DNA from: Candidatus Hodarchaeota archaeon | Lineage (GTDB): Archaea > Asgardarchaeota > Heimdallarchaeia > Hodarchaeales > YT1-057 | Direction of reading: 5' to 3' | Length of the DNA: 7,564 nucleotides | Assembly (NCBI GenBank): GCA_016839955.1 | Contig: JAEOTI010000784.1 | Coordinates: 1 to 7,564, forward strand | Shown here: one piece after another, positions 2,389 to 4,796 of the stretch | Layout: the number at the start of each line of letters is the position of its first letter | Position numbering within the stretch: the stretch's first letter is position 1 | Program-made: the position numbers and the translations under genes | The notes under the pieces: generated by a model | Told to the model about the DNA's origin: nothing | The model's database searches: none | Seen by the model: only the letters and a program-made list of their open reading frames with translations

Positions 2389-2421
2389 GCTTTAGGATCT
2401 AACAGATGTATTTTGATTCGT

Positions 2422-3249
2422 ATGTTAATAGAGTATAAAATTGGAGATTGTCGGAGTCTCCTAAAATCAATCAGAACACAATCCATTGATCTAGTTGTGA
2501 CATCCCCTCCATATAACATAGGAAAAAATTATGGAACGTATTCTGACTCTATTAGTTTTGATGATTGGAAGAAACTCATTACAGATGTTGGTAAACAGAT
2601 TTTTCGGGTATTAACACCATCTGGAGCTTTTTTCCTTAACTTATCTCCAATTCCTGGACCTAATAAAGAAATTATTCCATTACCGTATATTGCATATCCA
2701 ATAATGAAAGAAATTGGATTTATGCTAAGAAATTCAATAATTTGGACATTCAATAACATGCAGAATTGCACTAAACGTCTTAGTGGTCGTTGGGAAACCA
2801 TTCAATGGTGGGTTAAAGACCTTGATAATTATGTTTTTAACCTAGATAAAGTAAGGATACCTTACATAACTCAAGGAGATAAAAGGATCGAAAGAAGAGG
2901 GGGTATTGGGAGAAATCCCACTGATGTGTGGTATTTTAATCGCATAAACAACATGACGAAGAAGAAATTAGGTTTGGATCACCCAACTATTTATCCTCTT
3001 CAAATGATTGAACGAATAATCACAATGGCAAGTAAAATGGAGGACACTGTCCTTGATCCCTTTCTTGGAAGTGGAACAACCCTTGTAGCAGCTATTAACC
3101 TTTCAAGAAATGCAATTGGTTTCGAGATTGACGAAAAATACTGTAGTCTGATCCAAAAACGAGTTGAACAAGAGAGCATCATACAAGAAGACTTAGAATT
3201 TAATTTTAATGGACCACAATTTTCTAAGATAATCTCAAAATCAGCTTAA
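2422..3249 (+). CDS. beta-class DNA amino-methyltransferase (probably N4-cytosine)
   Basis: This 275-residue protein transfers a methyl group from S-adenosylmethionine to an exocyclic amino group in DNA. Catalytic motif IV is TSPPYN at residues 27-32 and the SAM-binding motif I is DPFLGSGTT at 212-220, followed by GFEID (233-237), whose acidic residue usually contacts the ribose of SAM. The order IV then I defines the beta class, and S-P-P-Y rather than D/N-P-P-Y favours N4-cytosine over N6-adenine, though not absolutely. The segment between, including GRNPTDVW (163-170) and HPTIYPLQMIERI (187-199, motif X-like), is typical of the COG0863-type family. Length is normal and all key residues are present, so it should be active. 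I chose the ATG at 2422; a TTG at 2413 would add three residues, and neither has a clear ribosome binding site. It follows the coiled-coil gene by 33 bases and precedes a second methyltransferase by 5 bases. No endonuclease is adjacent, so it is an orphan modification enzyme or part of a larger system. Confidence 0.93.
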   Translation: MLIEYKIGDCRSLLKSIRTQSIDLVVTSPPYNIGKNYGTYSDSISFDDWKKLITDVGKQIFRVLTPSGAFFLNLSPIPGPNKEIIPLPYIAYPIMKEIGFMLRNSIIWTFNNMQNCTKRLSGRWETIQWWVKDLDNYVFNLDKVRIPYITQGDKRIERRGGIGRNPTDVWYFNRINNMTKKKLGLDHPTIYPLQMIERIITMASKMEDTVLDPFLGSGTTLVAAINLSRNAIGFEIDEKYCSLIQKRVEQESIIQEDLEFNFNGPQFSKIISKSA

Positions 3250-3254
3250 AATCA

Positions 3255-4796
3255 TTGGAGGAGAAAGTTTTCTCAAACATTGGATTGGATAAATATAAAA
3301 AGGAATTATTTTCAGCGCTCAAAATAAGGAAGGGTCCTTATCAACTCATAATATTAAATATTAAGTCAATATTGAAAAATCATTCAAAATTATTCTCTGA
3401 TGGATTATTATCTATATTTACAAAGCTTTTAGCTAAAACTGGATTAATTTGGTGTTTTGTTGAGGATTTTTTTAACTATAAAGAGAAGAAATATGATTTT
3501 CGAACATATAATGTCCTTTCAGATTTTGAGACCCATTTTACAGTAAGGAACTGTATTGTCAGATTTAATCCAAATCAACAAGAAGGCGTACTTTTCAAAT
3601 CCTTTTATGATTCAATTATTTTCTGTTCCAAAGATCCAAAAGAATACAAATTTTTTAAAGACAGAATTCGCGAGAAACATATTTGGAAAGATTACGAATG
3701 GGGTGGTGGAAGAAGAAGTCGTTACAACCCTAAAGGTAAAGATCCAAGTAATTTTTGGATACGAACAGAAAGTCATAAGGGGAAAATTACAGCCTACTAC
3801 CCTTTAACTGAGTTTGAAACTCTAGAGAGAATTATTTTATCTTCCTGTTCTTCAAATGATTCTATTTTACTTGTATCAGACTCATTAAATAACGATACCA
3901 TTGGTAAAATAACGAAAAAACACACCATTGATCTCATTAATATTGAATATTCACAGAAAAAGATTAACTCAAATGGATTTCTGCAGAAAAGGAAGGAAAA
4001 ACCTTATACTGAATTAAAAGAGGTTAATTCAAGGCAAGCTGAGTCTATAATTTACTATAAAAGTAGTGAATCAATGAATGAGATATTAGACGAAAGTGTA
4101 AAGGTTATTGTTACGAGTCCACCATACTGGGGACTCCGAAACTATGATCATCCAAATCAGATTGGTTATAATGAGACGTATGAAACTTATCGAGCAAGAT
4201 TACTACAAATTTGGCAAGAATGTTACCGCGTCCTTTCTCCAAATGGTACGATTTGGGTAAATATTAACAAGAGAATAACAGATGGTAGATATCGAAACAT
4301 ACCCCATGATTTCGTAATTGATCTTGTTAAAACAAACTTCATACCCATTGATATAATCATCTGGCATCGACCAATATCTGTTCCAGGATATGGTGAAAAA
4401 AATCTAGCTGATAGATATGAAGTAATCCTTTTATTTGCTAAGAGTTTAGATTATGAATTTTCAGAAAATGGCATTTATTCTTCAGAAGATTATGCTCCTT
4501 CCTACATTAGCCAAAACCTGAATATTTGGAAAATGTTTAGGAAAATTGGGAACATAGGAAAGACCATTAAATCAATGAAAAAAGACTGTGGATTGAAGCA
4601 TACAGCCATGTTTCCAGAAGAACTTCCTCGGCGAGCAATACTGATTGGTTCAAATAAAGAAGATCTAATTCTTGACCCTTTTCTTGGTTCTGGCACAACT
4701 CTTGCAGTAGCAAAAGAACTAGGAAGATCTGGAATAGGCTATGAGATTAATCCAAAATATCGCTCATTAATCGATTTTCGACTACGAAATAAGTAG
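3255..4796 (+). CDS. fused pseudo-methyltransferase and active beta-class DNA methyltransferase
   Basis: The 513-residue protein has two methyltransferase-like halves. The C-terminal half (about 260-513) is intact: TSPPYW at 287-292, NLADRYEVILLFAKS in the middle, H449..FPEELPRRAI, DPFLGSGTT at 474-482 and GYEIN at 495-499, in the beta-class order and with the SPPY form common in N4-cytosine enzymes. The N-terminal half (about 10-235) follows the same layout without the catalytic residues: GPYQLIILNIKS (27-38) stands where TSPPY is expected, then GLIWCFVEDFFN (63-74), YDSIIFCSKD (118-127), GKDPSNFW (161-168, matching GRNPTDVW of the preceding gene), LERIILSS (190-197) and SILLVSDSLNN (203-213) in place of DPFLGSGTT. 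It therefore looks like a degenerate copy kept for DNA recognition or dimerisation. The start is uncertain: the TTG at 3255 lies five bases after the preceding stop with no upstream ribosome binding site, while GGAGGAG (3257-3263) falls inside the first codons; TTG at 3285 is an alternative. Translation is probably coupled to the upstream gene. Confidence 0.9.
   Translation: MEEKVFSNIGLDKYKKELFSALKIRKGPYQLIILNIKSILKNHSKLFSDGLLSIFTKLLAKTGLIWCFVEDFFNYKEKKYDFRTYNVLSDFETHFTVRNCIVRFNPNQQEGVLFKSFYDSIIFCSKDPKEYKFFKDRIREKHIWKDYEWGGGRRSRYNPKGKDPSNFWIRTESHKGKITAYYPLTEFETLERIILSSCSSNDSILLVSDSLNNDTIGKITKKHTIDLINIEYSQKKINSNGFLQKRKEKPYTELKEVNSRQAESIIYYKSSESMNEILDESVKVIVTSPPYWGLRNYDHPNQIGYNETYETYRARLLQIWQECYRVLSPNGTIWVNINKRITDGRYRNIPHDFVIDLVKTNFIPIDIIIWHRPISVPGYGEKNLADRYEVILLFAKSLDYEFSENGIYSSEDYAPSYISQNLNIWKMFRKIGNIGKTIKSMKKDCGLKHTAMFPEELPRRAILIGSNKEDLILDPFLGSGTTLAVAKELGRSGIGYEINPKYRSLIDFRLRNK

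Follow-up and report, generated by a model that had tools for sequence, protein, structure and literature searches.

A probable pseudo-methyltransferase partner, conserved beside an active-looking beta-class methyltransferase, in a Hodarchaeota archaeon and its relatives

METTL3 is accompanied by METTL14, a partner of methyltransferase (MTase) fold that does not itself catalyse. MTA1 is likewise an active MTase with a non-catalysing MTase-fold partner, MTA9, as described in PMC9174199; both pairs are eukaryotic, consist of separate subunits and belong to the MT-A70 family. Among beta-class enzymes the closest precedent is EcoP15I, a type III restriction-modification (R-M) system, in which two Mod subunits from one gene, with a helicase partner, Res, act on an asymmetric site (PMC4490356): most base contacts are made by one Mod, while the flipped adenine enters the other and is methylated there. 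The authors of that study consider it conceivable that this split extends to the whole class. In both EcoP15I and CcrM the dimer sits asymmetrically on DNA, with one active site facing away (PMC4490356, PMC6787082). Two MTase domains in one protein, in a type II system with an asymmetric site, are described for M12.MhoVII (PMC12898733), whose M1 and M2 both methylate, and for M.HpyAV (PMC2816704), a fusion of C5-cytosine and N6-adenine MTases whose cognate nuclease, HpyAV, is an HNH enzyme; the parts of these two reports at hand mention no dead half. Here we describe a gene in a 7,564-nucleotide stretch (the window; contig JAEOTI010000784.1) from a Candidatus Hodarchaeota archaeon, in which an MTase-fold N-terminal half (N-half) lacking catalytic and S-adenosylmethionine (SAM) binding motifs is fused to an active-looking C-terminal half (C-half), immediately downstream of a further MTase gene, M1. 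The relevant features are as follows.

3255-4796, + strand: fused pseudo-MTase and active-looking MTase, 513 aa, two beta-class amino-MTase halves
3285-3959, + strand: N-half, residues 11-235, a pseudo-MTase: beta-class fold lacking both the catalytic and the SAM-binding motifs
3357-3368, + strand: former catalytic motif IV site, residues 35-38, NIKS opposite C-half SPPY in HHalign columns; conservation of residues 29-45, 0.341
3645-3794, + strand: conserved segment, residues 131-180, at the place of the beta-class target-recognition region
3660-3758, + strand: core of that segment, residues 136-168, DRIREKHIWKDYEWGGGRRSRYNPKGKDPSNFW
3873-3899, + strand: former SAM motif I site, residues 207-215, VSDSLNNDT opposite C-half DPFLGSGTT in HHalign columns; conservation of residues 203-220, 0.219
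3960-4037, + strand: linker between the halves, residues 236-261, of low model confidence (predicted local distance difference test, pLDDT, 58 and 52 over residues 241-260)
4038-4793, + strand: C-half, residues 262-513, a beta-class MTase retaining both motifs (TSPPYW at 4113-4130, DPFLGSGTT at 4674-4700)
2413-3249, + strand: M1, beta-class amino-MTase with intact motifs (PF01555, E 1.3e-53; TSPPY and DPFLGSG present)

The N-half alone is matched by Pfam N6_N4_Mtase (PF01555, E 6.7e-10), and its predicted fold, modelled separately, matches M.MboIIA, M.RsrI and CcrM, placing it in the beta-class amino-MTase family by both sequence and fold homology; M.RsrI is the best solved match of the N-half profile. 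(In the structure comparison made with the full-length model, the 50 matches listed cover the C-half only.) This bears out the initial annotation, made from the sequence letters alone, which had read a beta-class layout with both motifs replaced, had expected a Rossmann-like MTase fold, and had described the region between the two motifs as retained. The N-half shares fold, motif order and a segment of the G-x-x-P-x-x-x-W type with M.RsrI, M.MboIIA and CcrM, but these are catalytic, whereas the N-half lacks (S/D/N)PPY, or any (D/N/S)PP(Y/F/W), and the SAM loop of motif I at the aligned sites. Judged from its sequence it is a homologue of the beta-class amino-MTases and, by its motifs, not an MTase. 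Motifs IV and I of the C-half are intact, with TSPPYW in all 76 aligned sequences and DPFxGS[GS]T in 75 of them, and we regard this half as a predicted, active-looking MTase; we take SPPY as a hint of N4-methylcytosine (m4C), with m4C and N6-methyladenine (m6A) both candidates for the methylated base. A Pfam scan of the N-half returned PF01555 only, with no MT-A70 match at E<=1, and the likeness to METTL3-METTL14 and MTA1-MTA9 would be analogy by convergence only.

The loss of both motifs is consistent across relatives. A search with residues 1-250 as query returned, apart from the protein of the window itself, 21 relatives, of which 20 have a dead N-half; the five that are named are all from Asgard archaeal metagenome-assembled genomes (MAGs; Hodarchaeota or Hodarchaeales, Heimdallarchaeota, Thorarchaeota). 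A bacterial N-half used as query returned 410 protein clusters at E<=1e-3, the best 120 of which were examined. Across both searches a dead N-half accompanies an intact, live-looking C-half in 136 of the 142 proteins listed, the other six being three that are cut in the C-half, an ordinary single MTase (P0022), one that deviates in the segment pattern only (P0060), and a 715-aa triple fusion in the order M1-pseudo-active (P0136). The pattern is not that of orthologues with intact motifs beside one decayed copy, the outcome against which the annotation had set its claim; its description of a pseudo-MTase linked to an active one as unusual is not supported, given the number of clusters found. 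Among the 21 proteins P0001-P0021, PPI persists at the place of motif IV in six and LD[LIV]FAEN at that of motif I in more, suggesting stepwise motif loss, and many bacterial rows of the 76-sequence alignment have a gap at the motif IV site. Database names, where given, are 'DNA methyltransferase' for fused archaeal proteins and 'hypothetical protein' for several free-standing ones.

Conservation in the N-half is reversed. All 16 N-half invariants among the 76 sequences (D136, R139, E140, H142, W144, K145, E148, W149, G151, R153, Y157, G161, K162, P164, N166 and W168) fall within 33 residues, 136-168, in the pattern D-x-[IV]-R-E-x-H-[IV]-W-K-x-x-E-W ... G-K-x-P-x-N-x-W. The conservation score there, 0.877, is the highest of the stretches measured, above the catalytic (0.841) and SAM (0.759) motifs of the C-half, and the former catalytic and SAM sites of the N-half score lowest. 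Target-recognition elements of beta-class MTases lie in the region of M.RsrI and M.MboIIA to which this segment aligns, in M.RsrI following 'YFFDLDAVREPY' and extending to 'GRNPTNVW'. Ratios of nonsynonymous to synonymous substitution rates (dN/dS) were sought for six gene pairs, of which two were not computable and one more (L012/L013) was not computable for the segment; in the remaining three the segment gave 0.024-0.053. The segment is under strong purifying selection.

The pseudo-MTase also occurs without its partner domain. An N-half profile search that admitted short proteins only, by length, gave 65 matches at E<=1e-5: 45 clusters of at most 217 aa with the segment and without catalytic motifs, 5 apparently cut fusions, and 15 lacking the segment. 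About 195 aa in length, 42 of the 45 are apparently full length, as far as can be told for database proteins whose stop codons are not visible; among the 45, P0186 and P0187 resemble fragments, P0174 exceeds that length, and P0169 is the protein of locus L007 itself. In two loci, one archaeal and one bacterial, M1, the dead MTase, the live MTase and an HNH nuclease are all separate genes:

L007 (Heimdallarchaeota MAG): M1 8962-10020, pseudo-MTase 9998-10585, active MTase 10578-11333, and HNH nuclease 11352-14042 on the other strand
L015 (bacterial MAG): M1 9608-10507, pseudo-MTase 10479-11045, active MTase 11020-11763, and HNH nuclease 11756-13588 on the other strand

The covalent linkage named in the initial annotation is one form among several. 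In L007 the first frame is closed by two stops and the next start overlaps it; a frameshift is unlikely as a general cause of splitting, given the L015 split and the 45 clusters, but is conceivable in L007 by itself. In a 49-row tree the fused forms are interspersed with the free-standing ones, which suggests repeated fusion or fission; for the free-standing forms, however, the branches with good support do not require it. A further free-standing relative of 328 aa lies at L041:6233-7219 in an Asgard genome.

In a tree of 60 rows comprising N-halves, C-halves, M1 and four other active MTases, the N-halves form one group on a long branch (support 100/100). The C-halves form a second (99/95), with subgroups that resemble those of the first, and it is with them, apart from the N-halves, that M1 and the four further active MTases fall. 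N- and C-half distances correlate (Mantel r 0.95 over all 76 sequences, 0.79 within the bacterial 54). These relationships would be most simply explained by a single loss of catalysis before the family spread between bacteria and the lineages labelled archaeal. The initial annotation had proposed a duplication; an origin by tandem duplication of the C-half is not supported as such, within the limits that long branches set on such a test; the best solved match of the N-half profile likewise lies elsewhere, in M.RsrI.

Gene order is conserved around the pair. The fourteen bacterial loci (L002-L006, L008-L016) come from Clostridia and relatives, Anaeroplasmataceae, Bacteroidales, Elusimicrobiales, Gastranaerophilales, Salinicoccus and one further bacterium, and in 13 of them the pair is flanked by an HNH nuclease relative and an upstream MTase, L006 beginning at a contig edge. 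Within these, the HNH gene of L014 is in two open reading frames (ORFs), the called M1 ORF of L016 is short and lacks motif IV, and the fused gene of L009 runs off its contig. The HNH domain was recognised by Pfam in L004, L012, L016 and L007 and by BLAST in the remaining loci, and the HNH end of the nuclease matches McrA (6ghc, E 1.2e-8). In Asgard genomes the pair follows M1 in the window, L001, L007, L037 and L038; M1 homologues recur upstream of it in the related loci. Two PADLOC MTase_II (type II) models, PDLC03299 and PDLC03387, recognise both M1 and the fused protein. For the N-half by itself, PDLC03299 is the only one of the two to score at E<=0.1 (E 2e-8).

From the homology, predicted fold, dead motifs, conservation pattern, free-standing forms and gene order we infer, with moderate confidence, a maintained pseudo-MTase that acts as the non-catalytic partner of the C-half in an intramolecular beta-class dimer and helps to read or hold DNA. 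The C-half would bind SAM and transfer the methyl group, the N-half would complete the dimer, its conserved segment would contribute DNA reading or holding, and M1 would modify the other strand of a presumably asymmetric target; in bacteria the HNH nuclease would complete a type II R-M system. As the initial annotation supposed, the N-half may keep DNA binding or dimerisation. The second MTase of such a type II family would then be a dead/live pair, a genetically fixed form of the EcoP15I division of labour: the beta-class dimer, the asymmetric site and the assignment of reading and methylating to different units would be shared, as the dead/live pairing suggests by analogy. The difference is that here each role would belong to its own half, the two having diverged and one being dead. 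A Pfam scan of the window's ORFs found no Res helicase-nuclease gene, within a short stretch and with only some of the neighbours in related loci scanned. An idle dimer unit encoded apart could lose catalysis at no cost, and the conservation map fits this idea, the idle unit having retained the recognition-like segment and lost the rest. A wider version, in which an ancient dedicated pseudo-MTase subunit reads DNA for its catalytic partner across archaea and several bacterial phyla, in trans, fused or within a triple fusion, and independently of METTL3-METTL14, is plausible, though we would put it somewhat short of even.

Several observations temper the proposed reading-and-holding role. In CcrM, reading and methylation of the target strand both fall to one subunit's MTase domain, and the other strand is bound by the C-terminal domain of the second subunit (PMC6787082), indicating that the division of labour is not universal in the beta class. 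Residues 141-160, in the middle of the segment, are of low confidence in both models (pLDDT 57-66 and 45-52), which therefore do not place its DNA contact. Synonymous divergence was near saturation in the pairs used for dN/dS, and the L012/L013 N-half outside the segment gave 0.547. Bacterial N-half profiles match active MTases weakly. M1 of the split loci has TSPSY (L007) or TSPGY (L015) in place of TSPPY, with motif I intact, making its activity there doubtful. The L041 relative stands alone: BLAST found it no C-half partner within 14.8 kb of partly masked sequence, and it has possibly been reused for another task. Finally, tblastn with four HNH proteins found no relative in the window (7.6 kb), L001, L037, L038, L039 or L041, leaving L007 as the only one of seven Asgard loci with flanks to have one, and no nuclease gene is seen in the window.

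The main rival is a pure scaffold, in which the dead half stabilises and activates the C-half by dimerising, as MTA9 does beside MTA1, and reads no bases. Such a role would account for a partner without catalysis, but an interface does not predict that all 16 invariants gather within a single stretch of 33 residues, rich in R, K, W and N, at the place of target recognition, and we consider it unlikely, if a serious contender. The conserved order with HNH and M1 genes, and the existence of the triple fusion, would suit a docking module whose segment binds the nuclease or M1 and joins restriction and modification in one complex; this is rather improbable, as conservation of the segment extends to the window, L001, L037 and L038, where the sequence covered holds no HNH relative, although their nucleases may lie beyond it or differ in kind. 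A sensor or regulator, with the dead half binding methylated or hemimethylated product or its own promoter to control the system, has precedent in the catalysis-independent regulation by type II MTases described in PMC12707154, but the Pfam scan found no additional DNA-binding domain in the N-half, and we give this idea little credence. Loss of both catalytic motifs might by itself suggest a duplicate decaying on its way to loss; the same state in 136 of 142 proteins, the strong purifying selection on the segment, and the spread of a single dead group over archaea and bacteria leave that explanation effectively ruled out.

If the pseudo-MTase does partner the C-half as proposed, the family would separate two roles that in homodimers share one gene and are hard to part by mutation, so that specificity and catalysis could be altered independently. 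It would also provide a prokaryotic parallel to METTL3-METTL14 and MTA1-MTA9, and the conserved segment would serve as a marker for recognising such systems. Among the titles and abstract openings listed in our literature search, which lay outside most subscription journals, preprints and REBASE, we found none that deals with a pseudo-MTase in R-M systems of prokaryotes; the parts are already known, and within that scope what is new is a dedicated pseudo-MTase partner in R-M systems.

Distribution of the family is patchy: scans of 398 genomes from the phylum of G004 and 294 from that of G005 (E<=1e-20) matched G004 and G005 only. In the phylum of L001, 14 of 227 genomes match at E<=1e-15. The match is fused in four of these, split in one (L007) and standalone in another (L041); in the other eight it resembles an ordinary single MTase, on at least partial inspection in three and by length only in five. 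None of 305 matching plasmid records and none of 707 matching phage records covers 80% of the L016 protein, phage records gave no match to P0163, nor plasmid records to P0188, and three viral-contig scans found no family member.

Further features of the window and its relatives are minor. A coiled-coil ORF lies upstream of M1:

1036-2388, + strand: coiled-coil ORF, 450 aa, stopping 24 nt before M1

With M1 and the fused ORF it forms a tight tandem, and it is a possible, putative operon partner of both. It has no Pfam or NCBIfam family and no BLAST relative among the neighbouring ORFs examined (low-complexity masking on); its weak JetC-like PADLOC scores (E 0.02-0.09) are probably chance coiled-coil matches. 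Counted from TTG 2413, M1 has 278 aa, ATG 2422 being the likelier start, and in fused loci M1 has TSPPY throughout except in the short L016 ORF. GGAGGAG directly follows the called TTG of the fused ORF (3255-3290, + strand), suggesting that translation starts a few codons downstream. On the - strand lie a TPR protein upstream and GNAT acetyltransferase and valyl-tRNA synthetase genes downstream. Pfam marks two HNH stretches in the L007 HNH protein (11352-14042, - strand; 896 aa), whereas the three bacterial relatives scanned have one each. At L039:7832-10958 a gene of the AIPR family and that of a diverged fused relative (442 aa) are convergent. Next to M1 and the fused gene, L037:4525-7630 and L038:10280-13502 have three extra genes in common (247-253, 291-292 and 412-424 aa; identity 62-73%), four of whose proteins gave no Pfam match above cut-off when scanned. 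By eye the 250-aa protein is helix-hairpin-helix-like, and the 291-aa protein has a PD...ExK-like stretch, which we take to mark a candidate nuclease.
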